Assembly (NCBI RefSeq): GCF_019649055.1
Contig: NW_026570395.1
Location: 140,811-204,810 of the forward strand
Source: Paramacrobiotus metropolitanus
Lineage: Eukaryota; Tardigrada; Eutardigrada; Parachela; Macrobiotidae
DNA length: 64,000 nucleotides
Direction of reading: 5' to 3'
Position numbers and translations under genes: made by a program. Each line of letters starts with the position of its first letter. Position 1 is the first letter of the stretch. Shown piece by piece: positions 17,415 to 64,000 of the stretch. The notes beneath the pieces were generated by a model that was given only the letters and a program-made list of their open reading frames with translations, did no database searches and had not been told where the DNA came from.

Positions 17415-18845
17415 CTACTTTGGGCTCATTACGTTGAGGTATACAGTTTGCCGAATCCACTCATGTATGTCAGGATAGAGGCGGAACCAGCACTCCACCG
17501 GACCGCTGTCTTGCGGTGTTAGCTGGTGAAAAGGCATTCTGAAGTTAACTGTTTCATCCAGAGTTTCGTCAGTGCCATCAAAGGCCACATTGGTCATCGT
17601 ACCATGTCGCCAGTGGGGACCCAAGAGCGTCGCGTAAGGCTCTCCACTGGGAGCCATAATAACACGTCCGTTGTGGCGCCAGATCCACTTGTTGCGATAG
17701 TTCAAGATCATATATCTAGGCAAAGTAACGGACACGCTGCAATTAAATATCACATTATCTCCGACGTTTGTCCACACGTCCGCCATTTTGTTCACGAAAA
17801 GGTCACGTGCGCTGGTTAGTCGCGGCAGGATTTTGTAGCGACGTAGGACGTCATACTGTTCGTGGACAGGGTCCTTCAATAGGAGACATGTCACTTCGCC
17901 GCTGGAATGGATGGTTACATGGGCGATGCGAAAGAGGACCACGATGCTGGTCTGCGAGAAATTATATTTTCCGCGGTCCGGCCCTCCGGCCCGTATTGGT
18001 ATGGCGCGGCCTTGATCATAAACGAGAGCGCCCTGATGTGTCCAAGAAATGAAGGACAGTGCGGCGCCGTCCGGTACTTCGCAGGTCATTGTGATTTCCG
18101 CTCCCAAACGCGGTCGACGGATTTTCCAGTCCGCTTCTGCACTGCCAAGCTTGGGTACCAAACTGTTGGGGAATTGAAGCTGGATTACATCGGCGCGCCG
18201 GGTACCAATGCCATCGTCCACTATGTCATCGACTAAATAAAGAAGCGGATTCAAATTCCAGTTACGGCATATCAAGCAATACTTACTGCATATAATTATC
18301 AGTCAACGGCAGAAAAGTTTTCGTATATTCAAACAATAGGTTGAAAGCTAAATTACATAATTTTTACTACTCTGTACATGCACAAGCAACAAGATAGAGC
18401 GCTTCCGGATAATAGCTATCGCTTGTATAAAAAACGTATGCACAGCTTGTTCACCCCAGGTGCAGATATTAAAAGAAATTGCTCCATTGTTATTTCCATT
18501 GCATTACAAGTACGATTCGTGCACCACAGTAAAACCCTTTTGAAATCTGCTCTTGCGCTGACAGTTATCAGCTAGGAATTGGAAAAGACTTCCCAGATTT
18601 TTGTTACTTAAACGTACGTATTTTTTTTGTTACTTAAACAGTTGTTGCATTAATGGTTGAAATAATTACTGGATGGTCACGTCCCTTAAATTAATAAATA
18701 CACAAATTATCTGTTAGTTCGTACAAAGTGTTCTCGGTCCGGATCGATGAGCAGGAGCTTTGCTGACAGTACACGTCTGTACATTGCCTGGTTCAGGGCT
18801 CAGCAGTGACAGCAAAGCCCATAAAATCTTTTCCAGTAGGTGCAT
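17415..18845 (-). CDS. Secreted two-Ig-domain protein 1 (exons 18725-18845 and 17415-18232)
   Basis: The large exon (17415-18232) encodes two Ig-like domains. The first has MTCEVP, ISWTH and SGEVTCLL as the Cys-Trp-Cys core; the second has VIFNCSV, KWIWRHNG and DSGPVECWF. The protein ends directly after the last strand (TVYLNVMSPK), with no membrane anchor, so it is probably secreted. The start was chosen by comparison with the paralogue: a conserved small exon at 18725-18845 begins MHLLEKILWALLSLLSPEPG, a signal peptide, and ends at a GT donor. With the acceptor TTTATTTAG at 18233 the phases agree exactly (121 + 818 nt = 312 codons plus stop). The donor GTACGA is weak, so splicing efficiency is uncertain. 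Partner unknown. Confidence 0.72.
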
Positions 18846-41679: not shown

Positions 41680-44086
41680 TCACAAGTTCGAACCGATTAC
41701 ATTGAGGTTCACCGTCTGCCGTATCCATTCATGTAGGTCCGGGTACAGTCGGAACCAACATTCCACAGGACCGCCGTCATTTGGCGTCAGCTTTTTTAAG
41801 TACATCCTGTAGCTAACCGTTTCTTGCGGATCGTCGTCAGTGCCACTTGAGGTCACATTTTTTAACGTCGTATGCCGCCAGTAAGGACCCAGGAACGTCC
41901 GGTAGGGCTCATCACAGGGAGCGGCAATTACACGACCGTTATGGCGCCACATCCATTTGTTGCGATAATCTGTGACCATGTACTTGGGCAAAGAAATGGA
42001 CACGCTGCATTTAAACATTACACTTTCTCCGACTTTCGTCCACACGTCCTGCATTTTGTCCACGAAAAGGTCACGAGCGCTGCGTAGTCGTGGCAAAATT
42101 TTGTAGCGCCGCAGGGTGTCGTGCTGGTCGCGGACAAGATCCTTCAACAACAAACACACCACTTCGCCGCTGGAATGGATGGTTACGTTGGTGATGCGAA
42201 AGAAGGCCACGATGCTGCTCTGCGAGAAACTAAAGTTGCCCCAGTTAGACCCACCGGCCCGCAATGGCACGGCGCGACCTTGATCGAAAACGAGGACGCC
42301 GTGATGTGTCCAGGATATGATGTTTATTGCGGCGCTTTCCGGGATTTCGCATGTCATTGTGACTTCCGCTCCCAAGCGCGGACGCCGTATTTGCCAGTCC
42401 GTTGCCACACTGGCAGGGTTGACTGCCGGGCTGCTTGGAAACTGCAGCTGGATTATGTCGGCTCGCCGGATGCCAACTCCGTCGTCCACTATGCCGTCTA
42501 CTACATAATGGACATTTAACTTTAATAACAGCAGCACGCTAACCAATATTTACTTAACATAATAATCAGTCAACCACAGAAACTTCTTTATGTACCCAAA
42601 AATACTACACCCGTTTAAATTTGGACGCATACAAGCAACGTAAAACAGTTTTTCCCAAAACTTATATAATTTCCAGGAAGCTGTTACCGTGTATAAAACT
42701 GATAAACAAATACACACCGCACCCAAAATGCGGGCATCAAACATAAGAAAATTGCCCCCATTTAAGGTAATTTCCACTGCATATGCACATGTAGTATCGT
42801 ATGTACTATGTACCTGTTTTACAAACTGGTCATTTTTGCCCAAATAAATATGTCAATGAAGCGTGCTGTAGCACTCAACGTTTCTTGATAAGCTGAAAAG
42901 ACATTCAGAATTTCGTATCCCGCAATAATGGGAGCAACAAATGGCTTTCTGGCAAACGAAAATTTAAAATTAAATACCGGTGTCTGCTGACAAAGTTTAA
43001 CAAATTTATGAAAGCTGAAGACATTTGGTTACTCTGTACCCAAATGTATCCCCGATCAGCATAGCATAGAAGAAGTGTTTCTGTTATAATAATCATTTTG
43101 TTTTTATTACCGAGTTTGTATCCGATATTCGATACTTATTAAAAGTACTGAAACTCTGTACATACTGTTTATCGAGAGCCATGTTTTATGGAATTCGAAT
43201 GTATTTTATTGAAAGATTTTGCATTCTTGCTATACCGGTACCTAGTAAAGAAAATGAAGTCGGCTAAATAATCTGTTTTGTTATTAAAGTGAACACTGTA
43301 TCCACCCTTGACACCCTCGTTTTTTATAGGCACCCAGTTTTGCACTCTGTTCATTTTTGACGCCCCATTTTTAGGGATTATTTTTATAAGCTTATTTAAC
43401 TTATTTTGTACCGTAGTTATCTATTTGATGGCATGCATTATAATGGATAGGAACATATTACGGAGCGTGCATTTCACCGTCACTGTAAATCAGACTTGGG
43501 CCAACAGAGTTTTCAACTATCTACCCACCCCACCAAACCGTATAATTCCACCACGCTAACAAATAGTAGACCTTCGCCCACCAACGATAAATGTTTTTAC
43601 TGTCCACCCACCCTCCCACTGGCTTTAAAAATTTTTAGCCAGCTCTGTTTGGCTCGTTATACACTTCAGCAATACCAGGTACTGCAGAAAGCAAGTAACC
43701 AAAAACACATGTACATTTTCATAGGCCATGGTGACTAGAAATGACGCTGATGGTAGGAAATCATCGCTGAGCACGGAAATGATTTTCTCGAATGTCAGCT
43801 GACAAAACAGTATTTTTTTAAAGTAGCGTGAAAAGGAAAAAGTGAAACCCTTACAATAAGGACGCACAATTGCAAACGTTTTCTCAAAGGACTGAAAATA
43901 AAAGCTTTACCAGGTCACGTTCTTTCATTTTCATTTCTAACGGGCTATCTGTTAATTCTTACGAAGTGTCCTTGGTCCGGGTCGATGGGAAGGACCTTTG
44001 CTGACAGTGCATGCTTGTATTTTGTCTGAAGCAGGTCTCAGTAGCGCTAGCAGTACGTCCAATAAAATCTTCTCCAACAGGTGCAT
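41680..44086 (-). CDS. Secreted two-Ig-domain protein 2 (exons 43963-44086 and 41680-42500)
   Basis: Paralogue of the gene at 17415-18845. Exon 1 (ATG at 44086) encodes MHLLEKILLDVLLALLRPAS, a signal peptide, and ends ACACTTC/GTAAGA, a strong donor. Exon 2 starts after TATGTAG at 42500 and encodes the two Ig domains: TMTCEIP, ISWTH and SGEVVCLL; then VMFKCSV, KWMWRHNG and GGPVECWF. Phases agree (124 + 821 nt = 314 codons plus stop). There is no membrane segment or anchor signal. The intron is 1462 nt, against 492 nt in copy 1. The extra sequence includes TTTTTTATAGGCACCC-like repeat wording (about 43295-43385) also seen at 14283. Conservation of both exons and of the unusual spacing argues both genes are, or recently were, functional. 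Confidence 0.78.
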
Positions 44087-45376: not shown

Positions 45377-48300
45377 CGTACAGATTAGACAAGACAAGAC
45401 AACTTTATTCCCCCAGATTTCTTCTGGCAGGGGCACACCATGCGTTGTGCCGTATGATTAGGTGTAAAATTATAGCTTTTGCAGAACAAACATCGATGAT
45501 GTCAAGAAAATAATATCAAACATAACAAGTTAACAATGTAAAACGTAAAACAAAAGGCGATGTAAAACATGATGTACGTAAAACAAAAGGAAGGTGAGTT
45601 TGGATTCAACTGCATTTTAGTTGCAGAAAGCTTTACATAGGCAGCAGTAACAATTCGCCGCAAAATACTTTGCGGCTATCTTTCAAGATCTGGTTAAAAA
45701 ATTGCTTAAACAAAAGAACAGCGTTTTATCGTGCTCCGTCGGCGTGTCCTTTTTTCGTAGTAAGTTTTGCATTGTTTCCACTAGCTCGCCATCCGGTATT
45801 GAAAGGTCATGGAAAGCTAGTCGCTCTTTTAGTTTCTCCCTGTGTGGAAAGTATCCCGGACATTCATTCAGTGCATGATACTTGTCTTCCACAACCTCAC
45901 AGAAGTTACATATCCGCTCCTCTCGTGACAAACCGTTCCATCTTCCTGTCTCCACAGCCAGATAGTGACCGGAAGTCAACATTTTTACCCAGTTTCCGCT
46001 TATTATCACAGGCATCGTTTTCAACAAGTCCACTTCTCCGCTTACCGGTAGAAACTGAAATAAAAAATGCAACCTGCTGCTCCTGGCAGCATTATCCTGT
46101 ACCGACTTAAACAGATTCACCCGGAATGTTTTCTCGAGTCTCGTCATTATATCAACTGAATTCAGCTGTGCCAGCTGATTACGAATATCTTGGACCGTGT
46201 TTGTTAGGTTAATTTCGATTTCTTCCGGTAATTCCCTGAGCGCATTTTTTATCCAGCATCTCTTTCTGCTTTTGCCAACCAAAATGCTTTCCTCAAAAGC
46301 CGCTCGTAGAAACGTCCCTGAGTTTGCGCGACTGAGCTTTTCGAAAAACCGCATCTGCTGTCGTACTTGTCTGAGACTGAGTGGTAGCAGATTCAAAAGG
46401 TACAAAATTGCATCGGTGTTCGTAGTGCTTCTGAGACTGAAAATTCGCTTGGCAAAGTTGATCTGCACTTTGTCAATTTCGCTGTTTTTTCCGCATAATT
46501 CCGAGCCATAGGTTAGCACGCTTCCCACGACTGCTTCGAAAATTATTTGTGCAGTCTTCCATGTGAATCCGGTTTTTATCCCTGATACTTTCTGTATTGC
46601 CATGTTGTATCCCATTTTTACCCGCTCTGTTAAATGCTTAGCAGACTTCTTAAGATCGCATTGTTCGTTTAACACAAAACCTAGATACCGAAATTCTGGA
46701 ACCTGTTCTAATTTTCGACCATCGATTTCAATGTGGCAGGAAATTTGTCTTCGAATAGCACCTTTCGCCACCATACAAAACGATTTGGCGTAGCTGATTA
46801 TCAGCTTGTGTTCTTGTGCAAACTGGCTTAATCGATCTACCGAAATCAACAGTTCCTCTTCGTTTTCGCTTATCAATACGATATCATCGGCAAACTTCAG
46901 GAGGTACACAGGGAGATCTCCCAGTGCAATATCTGTTACACGCCCTTCTCTTACATATTTTGTTAAAGGGTCAACGTATAGATCGAACAACATTCCTGAT
47001 GACGGATAGCCCTGCCTAACACCCTTTTCTAACGGGAAGAATCCTGACGATTCTTTGTTCCATTTTACGCAGTTTTTTGCCGCTCCATACATGTTTTTCA
47101 AAAATCTTAACATTTTTAACGAAATTCCTAACTCAGTCAAACGTTCCCATAACTTCTGGTGACAAACTGTGTCAAACGCACTAGAAAAATCGATAAAAGC
47201 AAGAAAAATCGGCTTTTTACGAAAAGCGTATTTTTCGCAGATGATGTGCAGTATGTATATTTGGTCAAAAGTGTTCCTGTCTTCTCGAAACCCACCCTGA
47301 TCATCTTCGATGTGCGCCCACAGTTCGATTCGCTTCGCCAAGATTGATGACAGCAAACGCATGGGCATAGGTTCGACAACTACCGGACGACAATTTTCTG
47401 GGCTGTGGGCTTTTCCTGGTTTCGGTACCGGTGTAAGTGTGCCGTTCAACCATTCTTGTGGAATAATGCCAGATTCAAATACGTGATTAAACGTATTTGC
47501 TAGGATTTGCAAAAACTGCAGATTTTTACACATTTTTTTGAAAATTTCAGTGCACAACGGAAATGAGCCGCTGCTGCTTGTAGCGGCTACTTTTGCGACT
47601 ACTCGTTGGATTTCGTTCACAGTTATTTCAGAGTCGAGGACTGGTATCGAAGGGGAAAGGTTAATATGTGGTGTTTTACTTACCGCAGAATCATAGGAAG
47701 CCTTTTGTTTAAAATACTCGTATAGATCATTCAGGCTGATAGGAACAACGGAAGTACAACTGTCTTCATTTTTCCTGAAGCTTAACATTTTCGAAAACAT
47801 TTTTGGGTTCTCGCGCTGTAAATGTTTCACTTTTTCCAAATATATCCGCTCGTAAATGCTGTTGTACTGCAAAACTTTTTTTCGGAACTTCTTCCTGGCC
47901 GACCAAAAAACCTCACGTGTTTCTTCAGTGTTATTTGCAGTCATAATTTTCCAGCACTGTATTTTGACGTTCTTAAGCTCAAGAATTTCGTTCTGTAATA
48001 CCTGGAGTTCTGGTGTAAAGGAATCGAAAGGTATTTTCTGTTTCCGAATGTTCGCCCGCACATATTCGACAACGCTGTTAAACAAGGATATATCGCCATA
48101 ATTGTTGTGCTGGAAGTTATTACCACTGAATAAAAAGCATAATACACTTTCAATGTTCATCGTTAAAAACGGGTGCATATCACTTTCCTTCTTCTTGGTG
48201 TTTTTGATTGACCTCGCGATGTCCATGTTTAACAATATTCTGAGCGGTAAATGATCTGAAAAATCAAGATTTTCTAAGATGTCGAACTCCAAAATCTTTC

Positions 48301-49680
48301 CTACGCTCTGTTGATAAACTATCAAATAGTCGACGACTGAGTGACCGTTATAATGTATGCAAGTAAATTTTGATGGAAATGATTTTTCAAAGTACTGCAA
48401 CCCATTAAGCGGTGTCATACCGTTTACACTGCAAAATTCAAAAAGTTTTCTACCTCGAGCTGTCGGTCGAGTAGCCTGTATATCCACGTTCTGTAAATTG
48501 ACGTATTCGATACTTCCTGATTCATTTTCCCGGTTTACATCCGCTTTCCAAAGCTTTGGCTTTAGATTTGCTATACGTGCATTAAAGTCACCGCATAACA
48601 GTACGTAACTTTCAGCCCTTGCGCGCTGAACTATTTCCGTAAGTTTTTCAAAACTTTCATTGTCATCAACGTTGACAACCGAATTGAACGGCGGCAAGTA
48701 AACACAGACCACGACAACGTTTTCGTTTGCAGAAACATTTATTTTTACCGCTAAAATATCACCATAAGATTCTTGCTCGTAGACAATACAGGACCTGAAT
48801 TCACTTTTAACATACACTGCGATTCCTCCCCCGGCAAAATTCGTTCGCACTTTGGACACCGTCTGATAGCCGGATACTTGCTTTATTTCGTGTTCGTTTT
48901 TTAGATGTGTTTCAACAAGTACAACCACATCGTGTTTTTTGATGAATTCACTGAAGTCGTTTTCGAACAAAGCGAACGTTCTTTTTAATCCGTTAACGTT
49001 CAGATAGACTATCGATAACTGCGTGTGCAAGTTCCTGGTTGCACGTGTACCACTGATATTACCGCTCTCTTCCGTTGACCAATTGAGTAGCCCGACAGAT
49101 CGTTCGGTACTACGATTACGTTCCGTTGACACATTTGGTAGCCCGACAAATTTTTCGTTAATATCGCACTGCTCCGTTAAGCTCAGCCGATCGTTAATTT
49201 GAAATTCCGATTGACGCCATCTGTATTCAGCTTTAGTATCTGTAGTACAAAACGATCCCGATTGACGCTCAAATAGTTCAGCTTGTGGAGTAACGGCACA
49301 CTGTCTACAGTTATCTGTAAGACTTGCACACGAGTTATTTCGTTCTCTATCTAACAGCGTGGCTCTTCTTACCGTATATTTTTCGATTTCGTAAAATTTT
49401 GTTGTGCTATATTCTGTTTGGTTTTCAAGTGTCCGGCTATCAACCCGGATACCATTGCTCTCGATTATTTGCGAGGCCCAATAACCTGACCTACAGAGAA
49501 TTCTCTTCCAGGACTGTACATGCGCACTTCTTTCAAGACTGTAACCAGCATCCCTTTTTATAAAAGAACTTGCCGCCTTTTCATACAAATAATATGTATT
49601 CGGGTTATTCGTTTTCGAAGCTAGTTTTTTTGAAACGTACGGGATTTTAGAATTTTACTGACCTTCGCTCTGGTATCGTG
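45377..49680 (-). mobile_element. LINE retrotransposon with 10-bp target-site duplication
   Basis: AGATTATGAA at 45367-45376 and at 49681-49690 flanks the element exactly. The minus-strand 3' end has GGAATAAAG, then a short (TTGTC)n-like tail instead of poly(A). The element carries one long uninterrupted frame for endonuclease and reverse transcriptase. The paralogous Ig flank at about 19855 is unoccupied, so the insertion postdates that duplication. Confidence 0.9.
45683..49588 (-). CDS. LINE polyprotein: APE endonuclease, reverse transcriptase, CCHC finger
   Basis: About 1300 codons without a stop. An N-terminal Ser/Arg-rich part (1 to about 190) is followed by an AP-type endonuclease (VVLVETHLKN, AGGGIAVYVKSEF, LLCGDFNARI, then SDHLPLRI). 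Then comes a reverse transcriptase with QGGFREDRNTFDQ, FIDFSSAFDTVCH, GVRQGYPSSGMLFDLYVDPL and the catalytic FADDIVLIS. The C-terminal finger is CNFCEVVEDKYHALNECPGY (C-x2-C-x7-H-x4-C). No RNase H domain was noticed. It would nick the target and prime reverse transcription there. There is no ATG before the endonuclease in this frame: the listed start is TTG and the first Met is about residue 390. So either the copy is 5'-truncated, or the ORF starts at a non-AUG codon or by reinitiation. Confidence 0.92.
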   Translation of the reverse strand: MYEKAASSFIKRDAGYSLERSAHVQSWKRILCRSGYWASQIIESNGIRVDSRTLENQTEYSTTKFYEIEKYTVRRATLLDRERNNSCASLTDNCRQCAVTPQAELFERQSGSFCTTDTKAEYRWRQSEFQINDRLSLTEQCDINEKFVGLPNVSTERNRSTERSVGLLNWSTEESGNISGTRATRNLHTQLSIVYLNVNGLKRTFALFENDFSEFIKKHDVVVLVETHLKNEHEIKQVSGYQTVSKVRTNFAGGGIAVYVKSEFRSCIVYEQESYGDILAVKINVSANENVVVVCVYLPPFNSVVNVDDNESFEKLTEIVQRARAESYVLLCGDFNARIANLKPKLWKADVNRENESGSIEYVNLQNVDIQATRPTARGRKLFEFCSVNGMTPLNGLQYFEKSFPSKFTCIHYNGHSVVDYLIVYQQSVGKILEFDILENLDFSDHLPLRILLNMDIARSIKNTKKKESDMHPFLTMNIESVLCFLFSGNNFQHNNYGDISLFNSVVEYVRANIRKQKIPFDSFTPELQVLQNEILELKNVKIQCWKIMTANNTEETREVFWSARKKFRKKVLQYNSIYERIYLEKVKHLQRENPKMFSKMLSFRKNEDSCTSVVPISLNDLYEYFKQKASYDSAVSKTPHINLSPSIPVLDSEITVNEIQRVVAKVAATSSSGSFPLCTEIFKKMCKNLQFLQILANTFNHVFESGIIPQEWLNGTLTPVPKPGKAHSPENCRPVVVEPMPMRLLSSILAKRIELWAHIEDDQGGFREDRNTFDQIYILHIICEKYAFRKKPIFLAFIDFSSAFDTVCHQKLWERLTELGISLKMLRFLKNMYGAAKNCVKWNKESSGFFPLEKGVRQGYPSSGMLFDLYVDPLTKYVREGRVTDIALGDLPVYLLKFADDIVLISENEEELLISVDRLSQFAQEHKLIISYAKSFCMVAKGAIRRQISCHIEIDGRKLEQVPEFRYLGFVLNEQCDLKKSAKHLTERVKMGYNMAIQKVSGIKTGFTWKTAQIIFEAVVGSVLTYGSELCGKNSEIDKVQINFAKRIFSLRSTTNTDAILYLLNLLPLSLRQVRQQMRFFEKLSRANSGTFLRAAFEESILVGKSRKRCWIKNALRELPEEIEINLTNTVQDIRNQLAQLNSVDIMTRLEKTFRVNLFKSVQDNAARSSRLHFLFQFLPVSGEVDLLKTMPVIISGNWVKMLTSGHYLAVETGRWNGLSREERICNFCEVVEDKYHALNECPGYFPHREKLKERLAFHDLSIPDGELVETMQNLLRKKDTPTEHDKTLFFCLSNFLTRS

Positions 49681-54486: not shown

Positions 54487-54778
54487 ACATCATACGCGCT
54501 CCCCCAAAAGGGTGGTCGAGCGCCCCTGTCGTCGCCAACGTCAAGGCACGACAGAAGACCCGCAGCCAGCAAGTCTTTTGGTCGACGCACCGCTGCGTCC
54601 TGCTGACACGAAGCAGAAGGGGTTATCGGCTGGCCCAGGAGAAGTCAGCTTAATCGCTGGAGGATTGGAGGATTCGCGGAAGGACGCGTTGGATCGATTC
54701 TGGATTCTGGAAATCGATAAAGGTCAGATTTCCGTTATTAATTTTAGAATTGGCTGATAAGTAGAATTTTCAATTTTC

Positions 54779-54929
54779 ATTGGTCGGTTCTGAGCTGAGC
54801 AGAAAAGTAGGCAGTACTTTTGCGCACGGCGCGCTAGTGAAAATTTTCGATTTTGGTCGTGACGTCACTCTGCCTTATAAACTGAAAAACAACTTACCTG
54901 ATTGGTCGATTATTCGCACTGTGATTGGC
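54779..54929 (+). promoter_or_regulatory. Promoter cluster: CCAAT-type boxes, CRE and TATA
   Basis: Inverted CCAAT boxes (ATTGG) lie at 54779-54783, 54902-54906 and 54925-54929. A full palindromic CRE/ATF site TGACGTCA is at 54861-54868, and TATAAA is at 54877-54882, spaced as in a core promoter. This is the probable transcription start region of the retroelement (U3/R-like). Confidence 0.55.
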
Positions 54930-55069
54930 GCAGCAGCGTAGCTAAAGTTAGCTAAGAAATCAGCCAACTAGAAGCTGAGATTTCGTAAGGAGGCGGAGTT
55001 TTTGCGCACGGCACTCAAGATTGTGACGTAGCTAGCTAAGAAAATTTTCTGAACCAACCGATGAGAAGT

Positions 55070-55454
55070 TGACCTTTACCGAAAAATTGACGAGATTGAT
55101 GACCTTTAATATAAGTGCCTAAGCTGAAGAAATAACGTTTGTTCTGAGGAAATCTAAGTTGATTTCTTAAATAAAATCCAAAAATATTCTCAGGTTAGAC
55201 GTTTCTGACTAAAGTTGTCAGTGACCTTTATAAGGAAAAAGTTCTGAAAGAAAAAGTGACCTTTAACGCGACGGAGTAAGCTATTAAGCTGAAACAGTGG
55301 GAAATTAATCTCATTTTACTAAAGGAAGTGTCCTTTAAAAGGGATTCAGTCAAATTTTTTCAAAGAAATAGTGACCTTTAGAAGGGACTTAGCACTTTTT
55401 TGAGGCAGAGTGACCTTTAGTAAAATTGAGCTGATACAAAAGAAGGTGACCTTT
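55070..55454 (+). repeat. Seven TGACCTTT words in the leader, all in one orientation
   Basis: TGACCTTT occurs at 55070, 55100, 55222, 55257, 55372, 55411 and 55447, mostly as GTGACCTTTA, with a variant GTGTCCTTTA at 55329. Downstream copies are mostly the complement AAAGGTCAC, so the leader could pair with the body of the transcript. Confidence 0.9.
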
Positions 55455-55577
55455 AGGGAAGCGCTTGTTTCTGTTTACGTGTAAAGGGGCTTACGTAGCT
55501 TAAACTAACACACGTGTCAGAAACATTATTAGCATCGTCCAAGTTATCCGATCATCAACTCAAGTCAAGACAAAGAT

Positions 55578-55790
55578 ATGGATCAAGACGGAGACGGTAA
55601 TGAACCGATCTCATCAGGGTCCCAAGGAAAACGGTCAAGGGACACGGAAAACCCGTATGAAGTGAAAAGGCAGCCGTACACGGCCGGTTGCTCACGAAAG
55701 GGCAACTCGAGCTCAGAAGACCTTTGGGAGGAAGGACACCAGAGGCTCAGAGGCCACATACCAAACGGCCCTGAGGGAAACTCAGAATGA
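55578..55790 (+). CDS. Short leader frame, probable decayed N-terminus of Gag
   Basis: The frame runs from ATG 55578 (MDQDGDGNEPISSGSQ) and ends at TGA 55788-55790. It is hydrophilic and in the same frame as the large Gag ORF that follows. A second stop lies at about 55802. Continuing in another frame gives NESSSDEVERTPGDMPEI, so an indel near 55780 probably interrupts one original Gag N-terminus. Alternatively it is a genuine upstream ORF. Confidence 0.5.
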   Translation: MDQDGDGNEPISSGSQGKRSRDTENPYEVKRQPYTAGCSRKGNSSSEDLWEEGHQRLRGHIPNGPEGNSE

Positions 55791-55868
55791 GAGCTCGAGC
55801 GATGAAGTGGAGAGAACTCCGGGCGACATGCCGGAGATAACACGGTAGACTCAGCAAAGGTCACCGAT

Positions 55869-58040
55869 GTGAGAATGGTCACAGATGGAGAGAACAAAGA
55901 TGACCTGAAGGCCGAGACCGGAGGAATGGCACGGTCGGCCGAAAAGGTCAAGGAGGATCAAACTGAGAAGGGAAATACCGAAGTCAGCCAAAAGGTCACC
56001 GAAGGTGGTGGCGCCGTCAGCAGCGACATGCTGATTGACGAAGGAAAGGTCAAACAGGATGACCTTTCGGATAACTCACTGTTCCTACAAGAACAGCTGG
56101 AAGAGAATGGTAACAGCCCCATGTCAAGTGACAAGTTCTACACTGATGACGAGGACGAAACGACGATACGAACATCTTTCCATACGGCCTTGAAAGAAGC
56201 CAGTATAACAAAAGAGATGTTCGAAACGACCGCTCAAGACAGGCTAGAAGAGACCTTCGAAGGGACGGCGTCAGGAAAGGCCGACGACCGGGACCAAAGG
56301 TCACCATCACCAAAAACATCGGTACTAAACGGATTAAAGCAACGAGTAAAGGAGCTTGAACGACTACTCGACGAGAAAGAAGAACAAGCGTTTGCCGCGA
56401 TACGAGATCAACGTAACAAAACCTTTGAGGCGGAGGCCAGATTGAGTGTGACGGAGGACGAAGTGCAACACTGGAAGGTCAAATTTGAAGTCCAGAAGCA
56501 AGCCGCAGAAGATCTTAAGAAAATGGTTGAAGATCGAGACACGAGAGGAACACTCACCGACGAAGACAATGATTTGTCCGAGGAGGTAGCTGAAAGGTCA
56601 CGAGAGATAGCAGAATTGAAAAGGGAGCGTGACCTTTTGCAGTTAAAGGTCAAGGAAGTTGAGAAGAAACGTGATGAATCCTTGTCGAATGCGACAAAAT
56701 TCACAGGAAAGATCACTAGCCTTACAGCAGACAACTCCAAGTTGAAAGACGAGCTCAAATCACTTGAAGAAAATAATAAAACGCTCCAAACAGAATTACA
56801 AGACACGAGAAAGAAGCGACACGAAGCAGAGAGCCAACGAGAGCATGTAGCGAAGGAACTGCTCGAACTGGCAGAAAAAACGAAAACCGAATTCAAACGA
56901 CTCAATGATGAAGTCGAGAACCAAAAGAAAGAAGCAAAGAAGTGGCTGAAACAAGCACAACTTTGTGACGAACGGGTCACTGTGCTAGAGGTCGCAAATG
57001 GAGAAGGGCGAAAAGAAAACGAAAAACAAAAAGCAGAGATCATAAAACTCAGCGATGAACTCGTGGAATTGGCCACTATAGTTATGGAAAAGGATGATAA
57101 AATCAAGGAGCTTGAAAAAGTCAAAGAGGAGTGCGAAGCGAGAGAAAGGACCCTCGCAGATAGAGCGGATCGTATCACACGGTTGGAAGCAGAAGCTGAG
57201 ATCCTAAAAGCAGCAAAAATGGATCTCGATAAGACTCTCGATAACCGAGCAAGTACAATCCTCGAGCAAATGAGAAAGGTCACCGAAGCAAACAACGATT
57301 ATGAGAAGCTCAGGAAAGACGCAAACGAAACCGTAAAGCAGCTGCAGCAGACAGTCAAACAAAGAGAGGAAGAAATTAAAACTTTAAAACGGTCGGCAAA
57401 ACAAAAGGAAGGAGAGGCAAAACAGCCGGAACGGATCGAATCTCCACCCCCCGGATATGGCGAAGTCCACACCGTCGAAGGTAGCTTTCATTTCCAAGCT
57501 CCCTTAAAGACGGGGACTGGCCGAAGCGACGGCCGTGATGAAGATAAGGTCAAAGCTGAAAAGGTCACCGACGATACTGAGTTGGCGAAGGGGCACTCAG
57601 GACCGATCGGTGGGGTCAATCCTCGGCAACAAGAAACAGGACCGAGGGAAACAATCGTCTACAAATCTGACCATCAGCCAGACAATCATGAAGATCCACG
57701 AGTTCGCCAAAACGAGCAGGAAAGGGTAGCTCGTGAAGAGGAAAGGCGAGAAAGAGAACACCGCGCGGAATACCACGCTGAAGCACAGCGACTCCGTCGC
57801 GAAGAAAGGGAATTCAGAGGGATCATGAGAGCCATGTCCCGGAAATCCGCACTGATTGACTTCAATGGCAACCGAGAAGCCTTACTCGGTTGGATCCGTC
57901 AGGTCAAGGAGACTCAGAAGACGTATGACCTTTCTGATGCAGCAATGATGCTGGAAGTCGCCAACGCAGTCAAAGGGACGCGAAGGCTTGGTTTGATGCG
58001 GAAAGAGAAATCGACGATGAGGAAGAGGCAGACGAACTAA
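55869..58040 (+). CDS. Retroelement Gag, long coiled-coil part
   Basis: About 720 codons, acidic at first, then a very long coiled coil (about residues 150-510) with heptad patterns such as LKQRVKELERLLDEKEEQ and LKDELKSLEENNKTLQ. A Pro-containing break (PPPGYGE, about residue 525) precedes a charged helix and the start of a capsid-like domain (ALLGWIRQVKE). The frame begins at GTG 55869 with the first ATG two codons later, and may connect to 55578. It ends at TAA 58038-58040, but the capsid continues in the -1 frame (AKAWFDAEREID), so one frame change near 57975-57990 separates it from the next ORF. The length and coiled coil are unusual for a Gag. Confidence 0.8.
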   Translation: MRMVTDGENKDDLKAETGGMARSAEKVKEDQTEKGNTEVSQKVTEGGGAVSSDMLIDEGKVKQDDLSDNSLFLQEQLEENGNSPMSSDKFYTDDEDETTIRTSFHTALKEASITKEMFETTAQDRLEETFEGTASGKADDRDQRSPSPKTSVLNGLKQRVKELERLLDEKEEQAFAAIRDQRNKTFEAEARLSVTEDEVQHWKVKFEVQKQAAEDLKKMVEDRDTRGTLTDEDNDLSEEVAERSREIAELKRERDLLQLKVKEVEKKRDESLSNATKFTGKITSLTADNSKLKDELKSLEENNKTLQTELQDTRKKRHEAESQREHVAKELLELAEKTKTEFKRLNDEVENQKKEAKKWLKQAQLCDERVTVLEVANGEGRKENEKQKAEIIKLSDELVELATIVMEKDDKIKELEKVKEECEARERTLADRADRITRLEAEAEILKAAKMDLDKTLDNRASTILEQMRKVTEANNDYEKLRKDANETVKQLQQTVKQREEEIKTLKRSAKQKEGEAKQPERIESPPPGYGEVHTVEGSFHFQAPLKTGTGRSDGRDEDKVKAEKVTDDTELAKGHSGPIGGVNPRQQETGPRETIVYKSDHQPDNHEDPRVRQNEQERVAREEERREREHRAEYHAEAQRLRREEREFRGIMRAMSRKSALIDFNGNREALLGWIRQVKETQKTYDLSDAAMMLEVANAVKGTRRLGLMRKEKSTMRKRQTN

Positions 58041-58054
58041 CCGTCGACGAATGG

Positions 58055-59641
58055 ATGACAAAGTTCAAAGAACATTTTGGCGATCGTGACGAAGGGGTCA
58101 ACGCCTTAAGGGAAGCTATGACAAGAAAGTTTGAGACCGGCAAGGAAACGCTTGATCAATTTTATCAAGCGATCATGCGCTTCAAATCGAAACGGGTCAT
58201 CACAGAAAAGCAGGCCATCGGATTCCTCATCCAAGGATGTAAAAACGACAGTGACCTTTATAAGGCACTTCGAGCACAAAAATTCCATAACCCCACGGAC
58301 ATCAAGGAATTCTTCCGCACATGGTCGACTGGCGAAGAAAAGTATAAGGTCACGAAAGGCAACCGGGTCCAAGACGATTGCGTGATCATCCGATCGGGCC
58401 AGATCGAAGAAGTCGCGAATGGGCGACAGAACCAGTCGTGCTCGGCGCAGGCGCCAGGATACAATACAGAATTCCCGCCGTTAGGCACTCAAGAGATGAC
58501 CTTTGGCAACGGTCGAAATGAAGGTCAGGTATCATACGCGACGATCGCGGCGATCCAAACGGCCGTCCAAGAAGTAACCAAGCCTGCGATCGCGGCGATC
58601 CAAGCATCAGCTCAGCAAGCAGCAAGGCCGAAACAGAACCCACAAGGAAACGTGCAAAGAAATGCCCTGAATGGAGGGCTCGGTGGCCAAGGAATGGTTC
58701 AGGCGAACCCGGGCTTTGCTGGCCAGGGATTCAACGGTGGCGGAGGAAATCAAGGAAACTTCCGACCGAACCGTGGACAAGGAAATCAAGGACCACGATA
58801 CGGGTCGCGAGTAGAGCGCCTGTTCACCATGATCGACGGATGGGTGGCCAATAACGCGCTGACATGCCAGAACTGCATGTACGGCAACCACTACACACAA
58901 GCGTGTTCGTTCGTGGGAACACCGTGGAATCAGAACCCCAACCGGGTCGTGTATGAAGAATGGCTGATGCTGCGTAATAATCATGGCGGATGGCGCAACG
59001 CAATGGCAAATGGTTATGTGCCACAATCACGCCAAGGCGGACGGTATGCTGGTCAAGGTGGCCAAGGGAACTTTGCCGGTCAAGGTGGCCAGGGCAATTT
59101 TGGAAACCAAGGTGGCGGCCAGGGCAACTTCGCCGGTCAAGGTGGCCAGGGCGGAGGATACGGTCAGAACGGCCCAGTCCGAGGAGGCTTCAGAGGAAGG
59201 GGCAGAGGCTTCGGCCGCGGAGGTAACCGTGGTTACGGCTTTGCCGGCCCGGGCCAAGGAGGCGGTAACGGAAACTTTGGTGGTCAAGGTGGCCAGTGGA
59301 ACAACGGAGGCGGTCAAGGTGGCCAGAACTACGGTGGTCAAGGTGGCCAGAATTTCGGAGGTCAAGGTGGCCAGGATTACGGCGGAGGCCAAGGTGGCCA
59401 ATGGAATGGCGGAGGCCAAGGAAACTTTGGCGGTCAAGGTGGCCAATGGAATGGCGGTGGTCAAGGTGGCTACCAGCAGCAAGGAGGCTTCGGCGGGCAG
59501 CAGGGCGGCTTCGCCGGTGGAGGCCAGAACGGTTTTGGTCAGCAAGGCGGAGGATTTAACTTCGCCCCGGCGAATGGTGCCGGCCAGGCGCAAGGTGCGC
59601 CGCAGCAGGGCTTGAATCAGGGAAACGCCCAAGGTCAGTAG
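58055..59641 (+). CDS. Retroelement Gag, capsid, CCHC knuckle and GQGGQ-rich tail
   Basis: It continues the capsid: WMTKFKEHFGDRDEG, then YQAIMRFK, FLIQGC and IKEFFRTW follow the pattern of retrotransposon Gag domains. A zinc knuckle CQNCMYGNHYTQAC (C-x2-C-x4-H-x4-C) lies at 58865-58906. The C-terminal about 200 residues are almost only Gly, Gln, Asn and aromatic residues (GGQGGQNFGGQGGQ-type repeats) plus an RGRGRGFGRGG patch, which resembles RGG/prion-like RNA-binding tails. It ends TAG 59639-59641, 50 nt before the first hairpin of the spacer. The frame is entered from the preceding ORF by a -1 shift, either programmed or a mutation. Confidence 0.85.
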   Translation: MTKFKEHFGDRDEGVNALREAMTRKFETGKETLDQFYQAIMRFKSKRVITEKQAIGFLIQGCKNDSDLYKALRAQKFHNPTDIKEFFRTWSTGEEKYKVTKGNRVQDDCVIIRSGQIEEVANGRQNQSCSAQAPGYNTEFPPLGTQEMTFGNGRNEGQVSYATIAAIQTAVQEVTKPAIAAIQASAQQAARPKQNPQGNVQRNALNGGLGGQGMVQANPGFAGQGFNGGGGNQGNFRPNRGQGNQGPRYGSRVERLFTMIDGWVANNALTCQNCMYGNHYTQACSFVGTPWNQNPNRVVYEEWLMLRNNHGGWRNAMANGYVPQSRQGGRYAGQGGQGNFAGQGGQGNFGNQGGGQGNFAGQGGQGGGYGQNGPVRGGFRGRGRGFGRGGNRGYGFAGPGQGGGNGNFGGQGGQWNNGGGQGGQNYGGQGGQNFGGQGGQDYGGGQGGQWNGGGQGNFGGQGGQWNGGGQGGYQQQGGFGGQQGGFAGGGQNGFGQQGGGFNFAPANGAGQAQGAPQQGLNQGNAQGQ

Positions 59642-59690
59642 GCGCCGGTGAGCCTACTGATCGTCCGGAACCGAAACCACCGGATATAGA

Positions 59691-60497
59691 GGAGCAAGGT
59701 GCTCCGCTGCAGGCAAGGACCGCAGCGAGAAAGGGATGCTGCGAAAGTAACGCAAAGACCCGGAAAAGAAATCCGAGGATTCGAGAAAGTAACTCGAAAT
59801 CGAGCGAAGGGGCTCGTAAAGGTCAAGAGAAGGGTGTTAAAAGATTGCCGCAAGGACGGAAGAATTTGACCGAAAGGTCACCGCAGAAAGTAACTGCGGG
59901 GAGTCAAGAAAGTAACTTGACTCAGCCGGGGCCGACCGAAAGGTCACCGCAGAAAGTAACTGCGGGAACAGGGTTGACGGAAGGGCCTCAACTCTGCATC
60001 CGGGACAGCAGAAAGTAACTGCAAATCAAGAAAGTCACGAAAGTAACGTGACGCTGCAAGGACAGCAGACCCAAAGGTCACCGCAGAAAGTAACTGCGAG
60101 CAAAGGTCACGAAAGTAACGTGACGCTGCAAGGACAGCAGACCCAAAGGTCACCGCGGAAAGCAACCGCGAGGAAGAGTGAAGCTACTCTGCGAAAGACG
60201 CAAGCGGAAATCTCAAGCGAAGAGGATGATGAAACAATGACCGTAACCGTAAACGAACGCATTCCGGATAGACCAAATTCCTTGAGCAGATGGCAAAGTA
60301 TTTCAAGCAAGAGCTGCCGAGGAAGATCTGAAGGGCCGTGACTGCGCAAGGAGCGCAAGAGACCGAAAGGTCACCTCAAGCGGAGTTGAAGAAGTGAAGG
60401 TCACGAGATTGCCAGTGCAGCAGACTCAAGAGTCACTGAAAGAGAAAGGTCACGGTGAAGTCGCCGATGAACCGAAAGGTCAAGAAAGTAACTTGAC
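59691..60497 (+). ncRNA. Array of hairpins with invariant AAAGTAA loops and variable stems
   Basis: Hairpins with 7-nt loop AAAGTAA (variants noted) and perfect stems are: 59740-59754 TGCG; 59761-59775 CGGA (AAAGAAA); 59780-59798 TTCGAG; 59881-59899 CCGCAG; 59901-59923 GAGTCAAG; 59947-59965 CCGCAG; 60008-60022 GCAG; 60034-60052 GTCACG; 60082-60098 CGCAG; 60106-60124 GTCACG; 60154-60170 CGCGG (AAAGCAA); 60479-60497 GTCAAG. Between them sit TGACC-GAAA-GGTCA (59867-59880), GACC-GAAA-GGTC (59934-59945, 60361-60372), GGAGC-AAGGT-GCTCC (59691-59705) and CAAGGA-loop hairpins. The array lies between gag and protease. Function is unknown; packaging, recoding or protein binding are possible. Confidence 0.85.
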
Positions 60498-61150
60498 TCT
60501 GCGAATGGCGCAGCAAACAGTGAAACAGAGCGAAGGGCACAGCAAGTCTCAGATGACTCTCTCGATGAGGCAAACACTCTACAACAGAAGAATGGTGGCA
60601 AAAGTCGCTTACAGGCCGAATGGACGGCACGGTATGTGAAACCAGTTTCTCCGCCACAAAGGTCACCGCAAGATGTGAGAATCTCAGAGAGCTTACTGGG
60701 AAGAAAGAGACAAGACGGCGGATGAGAAAGCATCTCCAGAAACGGTGAAAGCTTCACAACCGAAAGTACAAAAGTACTGGAAGAAAGTGTGCGACGAAAA
60801 TAACCGTCAGTTTCGAGTTGAGAGGGTGAACTACCGCCTCAGTATGGCGAGAAAGTACTACAAAGGTCACTAAATGGTGGATTTTCATGTCAAGACCAGA
60901 AAAGGTCACCGGACTGTGCGCAAACTCCGCAAGGAGAAGTCATACGACATGACAGAAGCAATCCGGAATGACAACGAAAGGTCACCGCCAAGAACTGACG
61001 GTTGTCATCTCAAATCGATCCACTCACGAATAACGAAATTGCGAAAAGAATTACGGAATGGATGAAAGAAAACGACCATAAGATGGTTGTGTACGAAAGG
61101 TCACCAGAGAAAAGAGTGAAGATGACGAGATGACCTTTGCGGATGAAATT
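60498..61150 (+). other. Spacer between the hairpin array and the protease frame
   Basis: No convincing coding frame. It contains AAAGGTCA words at about 60659, 60864, 60902, 60978 and 61098, TGACCTTT at 61132, and hairpins GACC, AGAAA, GGTC (60895-60907) and CTCC, GCAA, GGAG (60925-60936), the latter with a GNRA loop. Confidence 0.6.
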
Positions 61151-61300
61151 ACAAGAGATAATGGCAAAGTTGCAGAGAAAAACCGTCCAAAGATGTGCGC
61201 AATGAAAGGTCACAATACGAAGTTATTACGCAAGAGATAATGGCAAAGTTGCAAGAAAAACCGTCCAAAGATGTGCGCAATGAAAGGTCACAATACGAAG
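61123..61300 (+). repeat. 78-bp in-frame tandem repeat before the protease
   Basis: The block containing AATGAAAGGTCACAATACGA occurs at 61201 and 61279 (period 78 nt, 26 codons). It is preceded by a partial third copy with AGATAATGGCAAAGTTGCA. Confidence 0.9.
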
Positions 61301-61905
61301 TTATTGCGCAAGTGATAAAAGGTCACGAGAACGCACAAGAGAAGGGTTTAATGTGCGAAGTGGCGAAGGTCACGGGTAAAGAAAACGCTGCGAAGGAGCA
61401 GGCGAATGTTTTACCGAAATCAAAACGGATCGAAAAGTTCTCAGACGTGCGATCCGACGTACCGAAACGGATAGAGAGCAAGCATGCTGCACCAATCCCA
61501 GTCAAGTGTCGAATAAGAGTCTTGAAACTCGAAGACGGTAATTTACCGAAACGAATAGAAGCTTACACCCACGAAGTCAAAATCGGAAATAAAAAGGTCA
61601 TGGCAATGCTTGACACGGGCGCCGAGACGTCTTTGATTTGTCAACAGTTCTGTGAGAGAAACGGCCTCCAGACTGTCAGACTTCCACCGAAAAAGAAGGT
61701 GATGATCAAAGGGATCAGTGGAACGTCAGGCTTTGAAGTAACGCACTACTGCGTAGCACCAGTGACCTTAAGAAGGAAAACGAGTCAACACTCGTTCTAC
61801 GTCAGACCAGCGTCAGACGACGTCCAAGTCCTACTGGGATTCGACTTCCTCGCAAAAGAAATTCGTCCTGATAGACGGACAGGACGAGGAAGAAAGGGAA
61901 ACTGA
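61195..61905 (+). CDS. Retroelement aspartic protease (retropepsin)
   Basis: The open frame has no ATG at its upstream end; the listed start is GTG, with ATG at 61202 in another frame. After a repeat-derived Lys/Glu-rich N-terminus it encodes a retropepsin: MAMLDTGAETSLICQQFC contains the catalytic Asp-Thr-Gly, and VQVLLGFDFLAKE is the conserved C-terminal (I/L)LGxDxL motif. The enzyme acts as a dimer to cleave Gag-Pol. The frame ends at TGA 61903-61905 shortly after the domain (RTGRGRKGN); the following sequence is acidic in another frame. It probably depends on recoding, or is a decayed Gag-Pro-Pol segment. Confidence 0.88.
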   Translation: MRNERSQYEVITQEIMAKLQEKPSKDVRNERSQYEVIAQVIKGHENAQEKGLMCEVAKVTGKENAAKEQANVLPKSKRIEKFSDVRSDVPKRIESKHAAPIPVKCRIRVLKLEDGNLPKRIEAYTHEVKIGNKKVMAMLDTGAETSLICQQFCERNGLQTVRLPPKKKVMIKGISGTSGFEVTHYCVAPVTLRRKTSQHSFYVRPASDDVQVLLGFDFLAKEIRPDRRTGRGRKGN

Positions 61906-61992
61906 AGCTGAAGACGATGAGCCGAAATCATCCGCAAAAGTTAATGCAGGAAAGGTCACCGAACTTCAACCAAGAAGTAATTAAGAACGGCT

Positions 61993-62241
61993 ATCCCAGT
62001 ACCAGAGGCACAGGGATCGAAGGAAAATAAGCAAAATGAGAATGGTGAAAATCTAATCCCAGTACCAGAACAGGGATTAGAAAATGCTGAAAAAAGCAAA
62101 GGTCACCGAAGTCTAAAGGAAATCAAAGGTCACCAACGATGAAACAAATCAAGATAATGCAAGCAGAAGCACTGATTGCAAAGAAACAGTCGCTAGTGCC
62201 AGGAATGGAGAATGGCTACTCCCAGTACCAGAGGCACTGGG
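61993..62241 (+). repeat. Three hairpins sharing an AGTACCAGA loop
   Basis: ATCCC/GGGAT is at 61993-62017, CTAATCCC/GGGATTAG at 62053-62080, and CCCAGT/ACTGGG at 62221-62241. All enclose (AGT)ACCAGA. Stem lengths and sequences differ. Confidence 0.8.
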
Positions 62242-62724
62242 CACGAGAATGGTTGGGCCCAGGACAGAGCCAGGACTGATGAACAGCGACGAAAGAGCAC
62301 TATTCTCGGAAATACGAGATCAAGCCATAAAGCAACTGGATGCAAGGAAAACGGAGCATGGTGCTCAGCACTTTCGAACCATGACAAAGCAAGAGGGCGG
62401 ATGAAAGGTCGAGACACGCGCCTGCGCAAAGAGGTAGCAGAGAGTAAGCGTCGTCATACTTTCGAACCACGCTCTGCAGATGAAGAAATCGAAGTCATCG
62501 AAATATCATCAGATAACAGCGTAATCGAAATCGAAAAAGATGACGAATGGACAGATACCGATTCCGGAGAAGCGGATAAGCGAGTTATCGTCCGTCCTGA
62601 ACCGAGACAACGGATGCCGGAAGGGAACAATCGCGTCATTTCCCGCAAACCGAGAGAATGGACGGCGGAAGAGAGAGCAACCTCTTGCCATCACGATTGG
62701 CACGACAGCGATGACCTTCGATAG
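62212..62724 (+). CDS. Unrecognised hydrophilic frame in the retroelement
   Basis: A 170-codon frame from ATG 62212, highly charged, with an acidic stretch EIEVIEISSDNSVIEIEKDD that looks like tandem SUMO-interacting motifs. No retroviral domain recognised. A parallel frame (62540-62926) overlaps it, so one of the two is spurious or the sequence carries an indel. Confidence 0.35.
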   Translation: MATPSTRGTGHENGWAQDRARTDEQRRKSTILGNTRSSHKATGCKENGAWCSALSNHDKARGRMKGRDTRLRKEVAESKRRHTFEPRSADEEIEVIEISSDNSVIEIEKDDEWTDTDSGEADKRVIVRPEPRQRMPEGNNRVISRKPREWTAEERATSCHHDWHDSDDLR

Positions 62725-62819
62725 CGCGACCTCAAGAAAGATGTGCAAATGCATGCAAGAAATGACACAAGATGACCTTTCGGAATGGCCGAAATGCAAT
62801 GCAGCAATTGCGCGTCATA

Positions 62820-63204
62820 AAAGACAAGAAGAAATAGAGGTCAAGTCGATTATGAGAACACTTCCCATGCCGGAACTGTCAAAGCAACTTACCTTTGGCA
62901 ATGTTATCGAGAATGGTTATCGGTAGTCAAGAACTACATCATCTCCAGAGGGAAGTGGCTCCATCATTGGCAGCAAGAAGCGGACAACTTCATTCCCGAG
63001 AAAGCGGATAAAAGCGACCCGTGGTATACAAACCCGATTACAAAGCTCGACAGAGAAAGGCGACGAGCAATGGAAGAGAACGAAATATGGGAGCAAGCGA
63101 GAGTTGACTTATTTGGGAATTCAGAGTTAATTATCTATGGAAAGGTCAAGGACGAGCAATCATTTTCCCAATTGACCTGGCACAGTAGTGTACGAATTAT
63201 TTGA
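62820..63204 (+). CDS. Unrecognised open frame, Trp-rich
   Basis: A frame without ATG, from after TAA at about 62817-62819 to TGA 63202-63204. It reads TYLWQCYREWLSVVKN, then GKWLHHWQQEADNF and RRAMEENEIWEQARVDLF. The composition is protein-like, but no domain is recognised. Its stop codon is part of a TGACCTTT word. Confidence 0.35.
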
Positions 63205-63527
63205 CCTTTACCAGGCCTGCCTCAAAAAAGGAAGCTTAAGAGAATGGAATAAACAATGGGCAAAATCCTCGAAGAAGTACCGATATTCACAGGAGAAATT
63301 CCAGAATTAAAGGTCACGCGAAAAAGACGCGAACTTGATTATTTGGCTATCCGAGAAAAGAAGGTGACTTTGCACCAGATCCAGATGGAGTGGAGTATCC
63401 TGAAAGAGGCGGAGATACTTGGTGCATGTATGAGACGGTACCGAACAATGACTGGACTACAGAAGAACTGATGGCAAATTGCGTCTTTATCGGTGATAAG
63501 AGACCGAAAAGGTCATGGCACAAGCGC

Positions 63528-63660
63528 TGAAAGAAAACGGCACAAGCGCCGAAGAAGAAAAGAATGAAGATAACGGCACAAGCGCCGAAGAAAACCAAAG
63601 AAAAGAACAAGAGGTCAGCACAAGTGCTGTCAAGAAAACGGCACAGGCGCCGAAGAAGAG
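63528..63660 (+). repeat. ACAAGC-loop hairpin repeats
   Basis: CGGC, ACAAGC, GCCG occurs twice (63539-63552 and 63574-63587), with CGGC, ACAGGC, GCCG at about 63640-63653. A stem-changed form CAGC, ACAAGT, GCTG lies at about 63617-63630, and a weaker GGC, ACAAGC, GCT at 63520-63531. They are separated by GAAGAA/AAGAAAA purine stretches. Confidence 0.75.
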
Positions 63661-64000
63661 GAACCAACGCACACGGCGTATGAGTTGGCCTAGCTGATCA
63701 AGGAACTGAACCAGGCGTTTCGGGATAAGGAAAAACGGAACTCGGTAACAGATAAAAAAGGCTCAAATCGTCGCCAAGAGAAGAAAGCAAAGCGTCGTTA
63801 GTGGCTTCATTGTTAAAGGTCACTCGGTAACGGTGAGGAAGGCCACCAACCGAGAAGAACGAAAGGTCACTAAACGCGATGCTGGAAGAGGAGCCAGAGG
63901 GTCAACCTGAAAGTTGACGAAAGAAAGTCATCTGAAACTGGCGAGGAAGGACCGCCGCCAGTTGAAAAGCAAAAGGTCACAGAATACCGCTCAAGCAGAT

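Follow-up and report, generated by a model that had tools for sequence, protein, structure and literature searches.

A hairpin array overlapping the Gag-Pol linker of a tardigrade Ty3/Gypsy element, tentatively read as a selected genome signal for Gag

What holds a seven-base loop nearly constant while the stems around it take one sequence after another? The question is raised by a cluster of hairpins in the window, by which we mean the whole 64,000-nucleotide stretch analysed here; the window adjoins a contig end in a host assembly of 169.8 Mb. A sequence-only reading had described twelve such hairpins at 59740-60497, and all twelve do exist, with AAAGTAA in ten of the loops, AAAGAAA in one and AAAGCAA in one, on Watson-Crick stems of 4-8 bp. 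They belong to a longer series, at 59635-60190, in which other hairpins have different loops. The array and its members are as follows.

59664 to 60190, + strand: dense hairpin array (17 hairpins with stems of at least 5 bp within 59641-60200)
59740 to 59754, + strand: hairpin TGCG-AAAGTAA-CGCA
59761 to 59775, + strand: hairpin CGGA-AAAGAAA-TCCG
59780 to 59798, + strand: hairpin TTCGAG-AAAGTAA-CTCGAA
59881 to 59899, + strand: hairpin CCGCAG-AAAGTAA-CTGCGG
59901 to 59923, + strand: hairpin GAGTCAAG-AAAGTAA-CTTGACTC
59947 to 59965, + strand: hairpin CCGCAG-AAAGTAA-CTGCGG
60008 to 60022, + strand: hairpin GCAG-AAAGTAA-CTGC
60034 to 60052, + strand: hairpin GTCACG-AAAGTAA-CGTGAC
60082 to 60098, + strand: hairpin CGCAG-AAAGTAA-CTGCG
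60106 to 60124, + strand: hairpin GTCACG-AAAGTAA-CGTGAC
60154 to 60170, + strand: hairpin CGCGG-AAAGCAA-CCGCG
60479 to 60497, + strand: outlying hairpin GTCAAG-AAAGTAA-CTTGAC

AAAGTAA occurs 24 times in the 64-kb window, 20 times on the + strand and four times on the - strand, and stems of at least 4 bp flank all ten occurrences in the array against none of the 14 elsewhere, the best of which has 3 bp. The 17 hairpins of the array compare with 3.0 +- 1.6 in dinucleotide shuffles (z 8.8). Over 59601-60200 the folding z per 200 nt runs from -5.3 to -6.3 on the sense strand and from -4.1 to -5.4 on the antisense strand, the lowest sense value elsewhere in 54801-64000 being -4.5. When the twelve hairpins are aligned without gaps, 90.3% of their 72 stem cells are paired, against 54.4% after shuffling and 23-42% after sliding, which bears out the claim that the stems vary with pairing kept; no G-U is found among the paired cells, and no one-sided standard pairs occur. 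The covariation score of the alignment is 0.904 vs 0.241, with 27 double changes and all six stem pairs altered on both sides. A chance origin of the array is ruled out by the dinucleotide shuffles together with the pairing test. The ten different stems that had been counted are indeed varied, but by eye they reduce to about six classes (CGCAG-, GTCAAG- and GTCACG-type, TTCGAG, TGCG and CGGA), and tandem copying had been dismissed too readily, as some stem classes did arise in this way (72-bp repeat at 60008-60177).

The array is embedded in the following coding features.

58055 to 59641, + strand: Gag ORF with one CCHC knuckle, CQNCMYGNHYTQAC, and an RG/GQ-rich tail
59620 to 59626, + strand: slippery heptamer GGGAAAC (gag phase CAG GGA AAC), 8 nt 5' of the next hairpin
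59635 to 59660, + strand: predicted 9-bp hairpin across the gag stop TAG (59639-59641), a likely -1 frameshift stimulator
59641 to 61905, + strand: Gag-Pol linker and protease, in the -1 frame in stop-free copies; the window copy is broken by a frame change and stops
61573 to 61854, + strand: aspartyl protease domain (Pfam gag-asp_proteas 1.5e-10; RVP 1.1e-6)

The gag-asp_proteas match covers residues 127-220 of the ORF that starts at 61195, and in one relative, L065, the protease is followed 3' by RVT_1, RT_RNaseH, Integrase_H2C2 and rve, in that order. We assign the element to Ty3/Gypsy because its pol order is protease, RT, RNase H and integrase, the protease being taken from the window and the rest from L065. 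The window Gag ORF has no gag match in Pfam, and its sole match among a set of 5.8 billion proteins comes from the tardigrade Paramacrobiotus metropolitanus, the species also named by two pol matches. The array had been placed between gag and protease as if it were a spacer between coding regions. It lies instead inside the pol frame, -1 relative to gag: one frame is stop-free over 540 nt in 21 of 35 copies, and the remaining frames have 5-12 stops each. The non-coding spacer reading is ruled out by this open frame of other copies; in the window copy itself the array stretch has stops in all frames. The linker contains the peptide repeats QKVTA, xESNx and KMPS, as well as tandem units. In copy L004 the heptamer AAAGTAA falls in two codon phases, giving ESN six times and KVT four times, and therefore the nucleotides, not the peptide, seem to be held; such two-phase reading is unexpected from peptide constraint alone.

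Known -1 signals of animal LTR retroelements consist of a heptamer and then a hairpin, a layout common to the present element. Its gag ends in CAG GGA AAC GCC CAA GGT CAG TAG and thus combines an X_XXY_YYZ heptamer in gag phase with an 8-nt spacer and a 9-bp stem, the -1 frame being open elsewhere. GGGAAAC stands upstream of the stop hairpin at 42 of the 55 loci scanned; of the remaining 13, six have AGGAAAC and in seven the scan found no site. The stop hairpin is lengthened to 11 bp in L041, L051, L056 and L060. In the pertinent passages of PMC5009743, G_GGA_AAC is listed with the most shift-prone heptamers, and pol lies in the -1 frame in 28 of 51 animal retroelements.

Among the 40 loci that contain the region, 35 keep between 2 and 14 AAAGNAA hairpins (stem of at least 3 bp); loss from most copies, which the sequence-only reading had named as telling against itself, is thus not what we found. 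The five loci with none are three pieces that lack the array part, one with the first 150 nt only, and the family B copy L041. Extra duplicated units bring L030, L021 and L042 to 14 AAAGNAA hairpins each, and the second 500 nt of L030 reaches z 6.3. One-sided stem changes are common among the copies of family A, as is expected of decaying insertions. A protease search gave at least 150 matches (150 of 735 candidates scored), from which 20 divergent relatives were taken, and the relatives were split into families by loop, L041 being assigned to B. The stop hairpin and hairpins after it, mostly with other loops, are present in 17 of the 20; the stop hairpin was found by pattern in 15 of these and with one base different in L047 and L048. 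The remaining three, L054, L059 and L062, are damaged (internally deleted, truncated or interrupted). Among 40 of 148 candidates scored, the junction of the array-deleted L062 was fully matched only by itself, which is too little proof that the array is needed, and partial copies such as L037 included no clear non-autonomous derivative.

The loops differ by family: AATGGTA and TATATGGAT in B; AATCGGA, AATAGTA, TCAAAAGAT and GCAAAGGA in C. GCAG-N7-CTGC is the single stem common to all families, and it carries AAAGTAA in 113 of 131 cases in A, AATGGTA in 27 of 41 in B, and a mixture in C (AATCGGA 9, AATAGTA 7, AATGGTA 5, others). By eye, the sense-strand loops look A/G-rich in every family. As a form shared with the relatives, the window's own hairpin had to be abandoned: a covariance model on 18 relatives recovered ten of the twelve window hairpins and only two weak matches, in L047 (E 0.074) and L063 (E 0.11). 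The constant heptaloop, proposed as a trait of the element, is therefore a trait of family A; the relatives keep arrays with other loops, and the thing conserved is the array at its position, which is the same in all three families.

Synonymous-codon shuffles keep the protein, and hairpins counted against such shuffled versions exceed amino-acid constraint, strongly in family A and more weakly in relatives. In eight family A copies 10-15 hairpins are seen where 3.2-3.7 would be expected (z 4.1-8.6), and in 15 relatives the linker gives z 1.6-5.0 and gag z -0.7 to 2.2. Because tandem duplication inflates hairpin counts, the excess was recounted with each inner stem taken once; family A then gives z 2.8-5.9, no more than one shuffle in 200 reaching the observed value in any of the eight copies, and the relatives z 0.1-2.8, with seven of 15 at or below 5%. 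In relatives a few duplicated hairpins carry much of the excess, and the case therefore rests mainly on family A, where structure and covariation go beyond coding constraint; in relatives this holds weakly after collapsing of duplicates. Amino-acid repeats alone are disfavoured by the synonymous shuffles, firmly only in family A after collapsing. In sliding windows the strongest excess lies 3' of the frameshift site in five gag-linker copies (L004 6.7, L049 5.3, L060 4.4, L056 3.4, L053 3.0); smaller peaks lie elsewhere, at z 3.1 both in L060 gag and downstream in L049. In a further set of five relatives, the gag peak of L048 (z 5.3) exceeds its linker maximum (4.9), L047 peaks at z 3.6 within gag and at 3.7 within the linker, and of the damaged copies L054 reaches 4.7 and L059 3.6.

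Stem positions also change more slowly. Hairpins were set on one copy, with stop-free linkers only as references, and diversity was taken among the other copies, because earlier single-copy tests were biased towards the reference's intact stems. With each of the 30 reference choices (19 A, 6 B and 5 C), diversity at third codon positions is lower inside stems, which is consistent but not independent evidence, as the references share data; the medians are 0.70, 0.41 and 0.69 in A, B and C, and circular shifts put 11 of the 30 tests at the 5% level. In A, diversity in stems is reduced at positions 1 and 2 as well; in B mainly position 3 is affected. No clean frame emerged when codon positions were tested on majority rows.

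The array begins directly 3' of the canonical heptamer and stop hairpin, and one explanation is that it sets the ratio of Gag to Gag-Pol, either by modulating -1 frameshifting or by pacing ribosomes in the linker. The shift-prone heptamer and the frequent -1 frame of animal pol genes agree with such translation control, as does the finding that z is higher in the first block of the linker than in the next 600 nt in 11 of 15 relatives (that second block has z 0.9 to 4.2 and surpasses the first in the other four). Yet in known cases a single hairpin at the stop is enough to stimulate shifting; further hairpins, hundreds of nucleotides 3' of it, would be unneeded, and a shared loop would have no obvious role. 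We consider this explanation unlikely, although it is the best placed of the rivals.

Covariation extends to the relatives. Against 20 column shuffles, which do not preserve codons, RNAalifold gives z -9.8 for B (nine copies) and z -9.3 for C (seven copies), with compensatory pairs numbering 4 of 111 and 18 of 107, respectively. In KMPS/WMPS hairpins chosen blind to the base pair under test, T/C in the 5' Met/Thr codon pairs with the CCA/CCG wobble of Pro in 17 of the 18 distinct sequences (Fisher p 2.5e-4 for these) and in 57 of 58 when duplicates are included, a covariation that is partly descent because family B is all C-G; family C alone has seven T-A, two C-G and one C-A (p 0.067). Double changes, uncorrected for descent, stand above independence in each family (41 v 4.2 in A, 5 v 1.0 in C, 1 v 0.1 in B), and single-sided changes are common across copies. 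Similar doubles could have been written by intra-strand template switching (quasi-palindrome correction), at reverse transcription or replication, which would leave functionless inverted repeats in a disordered linker that tolerates them. The process, as outlined for RNA genes in PMC8794818, writes perfect stems, and the window's twelve stems are strictly Watson-Crick. By itself, however, it leaves unexplained both the constant loop on different stems and the lower third-position diversity in stems, and another long low-complexity part of pol reaches z 2.0 at most (L064). A mutational origin is thus also improbable in our view, and takes second place among the rivals.

In a helix of sense-strand RNA, G-U mismatches are expected to be tolerated more readily than A-C, and the two were compared for this reason. 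A G-U excess was sought in the three families and not found, with 108 distinct A-C events against 73 G-U (G-U v A-C: 32 v 41 among 33 copies of A, 21 v 32 in B, 20 v 35 in C). Among changes common to at least three family A copies there are ten A-C against four G-U. Transitions of A-C type and G-U type in stem columns number 94 and 80 in A, 8 and 8 in B, and 11 and 12 in C; the corresponding figures outside hairpins are 87 and 105, 67 and 71, and 50 and 55. The test is weak in family A because most changes there are probably post-insertion decay. A G-U preference that might serve as proof of RNA is absent in A, B and C alike. Where selected RNA or ssDNA structure had been proposed, then, the pairing is indeed kept, but sense RNA is not specifically backed by the mismatches; their spectrum is compatible with selection for strict Watson-Crick pairs, with a role at the DNA level and with template switching. 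Antisense folding nearly matches sense, which counts against a sense-RNA reading.

Some other nucleic-acid role, such as RNA dimerisation, a shield from the host small-RNA or splicing machinery, or protein binding to a cruciform, would suit a mismatch spectrum without sense-strand preference, and the element is also dotted with AAAGGTCA/TGACCTTT. Stems of only 4-8 bp, on the other hand, extrude poorly as DNA, and the A/G-rich look of the sense-strand loops in all families counts against such roles too, so that we regard them as more doubtful still. Least probable is that the hairpins are a side effect of repeated amino acids and tandem duplication, with no selection on structure: the linker is indeed composed of peptide repeats and tandem units, and collapsing of duplicated stems erases the 5% excess in eight of 15 relatives, but the excess outlasts collapsing in all eight family A copies, and the stem constraint and the reading of one heptamer in two phases speak against it.

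The element and the window hold further features. AAAGGTCA/TGACCTTT, which includes AGGTCA, the nuclear-receptor half-site, is spread within 54719-63979, with 52 occurrences in 54701-64000 vs 12 in 1-54700. It is read in more than one codon phase and occurs 15 times in the L004 linker vs 2.6 in synonymous shuffles (maximum 7 in 500), and 8 and 3 times in window ORF1 vs 1.4 and 0.1. Per 3.7 kb, AAAGGTCA is found 12-17 times in nine B relatives and 0-1 times in seven of eight C relatives, the other, L044, having 6; at 55070-55454 the TGACCTTT orientation only is present, seven times. IPVPEALG-type peptide repeats of pol at about 61990-62245 are also hairpin-like, for example CCCAGT ACCAGAGGC ACTGGG at about 62221; similar repeats are present in L041, and the matching stretch of L064 has z of at most 2.0 against synonymous shuffles. 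Protease-bearing open frames in relatives run to 3124 codons, and one relative has about 1000 residues between protease and RT without a Pfam match. Elsewhere in the window are a Helitron-like N-terminal domain (1565-2806), two similar ORFs of 286 and 288 aa (17415-18275 and 41680-42546), apparent paralogues by eye, the first with weak Ig-domain matches under the curated cut-off, a long, GC-rich-looking tandem array with a period of about 82 bp (34403-35990), and a LINE-like, stop-free endonuclease/RT ORF of 1301 aa (45683-49588).

We tentatively favour a selected structure that overlaps the Ty3/Gypsy Gag-Pol linker and most likely serves as a genome signal read by Gag, well short of certainty as this is. 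It is ranked first because a CCHC knuckle and an RG-rich tail are found in the Gag of all three families and because MMTV and HBV offer precedents. MMTV Gag requires a purine loop, according to the relevant part of PMC8096270, and the HBV core protein reads dispersed, repeated hairpins with an RGAG loop, according to that of PMC7612645. In the proposed mechanism, gag and pol would be joined by -1 frameshifting at GGGAAAC and the hairpin at the gag stop; the next 500-600 nt of pol would form a string of small hairpins whose loops are rich in A and G, written via codon choice in a tolerant, disordered linker; the array might then act as a multi-site signal on the full-length RNA; and the element's own Gag, through its knuckle and RG-rich tail, may read it for genome capture. 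As for the shared loop of a multi-site packaging signal, AAAGTAA is present in ten of the window's twelve hairpins, and loops are more varied in families B and C. Known retroviral packaging signals lie mostly near the 5' end, which counts against packaging as the step.

The typical residues of the knuckle differ between families, and each stands beside its own loop words: AAAGTAA with CQNCMYGNHYTQAC in A, AATGGTA with CQYCMYGNHQTQGC in B (nine of ten loci, with minor variants), and AATCGGA and AATAGTA with CQNCGFGNHDAQNC in C (knuckle in five of eight, altered in L045 and broken by stops in L046 and L053). A family-specific RNA address, in which each loop word is matched to its own Gag knuckle so that coexisting elements package only themselves, would go further and is, to our mind, rather doubtful. 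How LTR retrotransposons select their own RNA is understood for few elements, and dozens of copies in one genome, in three families with one architecture and different loops, amount to a natural experiment on loop-Gag co-evolution. Nucleic-acid structure and protein linker apparently share the same letters here, and the locus is also a test bed for whether perfect hairpins come from selection or from template switching.

Among the titles and abstract openings listed by our searches of open-licence literature, no comparable array appears, and known systems resemble it in part. The -1 signals of animal LTR retroelements have the same -1 pol and classical heptamer, but the passages of PMC5009743 that describe them mention no hairpin array 3' of them, unlike here. 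The Sirevirus gag-terminator, in the same source, is likewise a covariant stem (11 bp) near the gag end of an LTR element, yet it is a single stem, in plants. The template-switch hairpins outlined in PMC8794818 likewise have perfect stems and multi-base compensatory changes; they reflect a mutation process in RNA genes rather than a shared-loop coding array. In MMTV, Pr77Gag recognises a purine-rich loop borne on a hairpin, as Gag putatively does here, although the MMTV loop, as PMC8096270 presents it, lies near the 5' end, outside pol and without an array. Closest in form are the packaging signals of the HBV core protein, where PMC7612645 describes one loop motif on differing short stems spread over the genome, and those of satellite tobacco necrosis virus (STNV), for which multiple hairpins with one loop motif on varied stems are described in outline; compared with both, the present hairpins are clustered in about 550 nt, their loop differs by family, the element belongs to Ty3/Gypsy, and the reader is a putative one, its own Gag.
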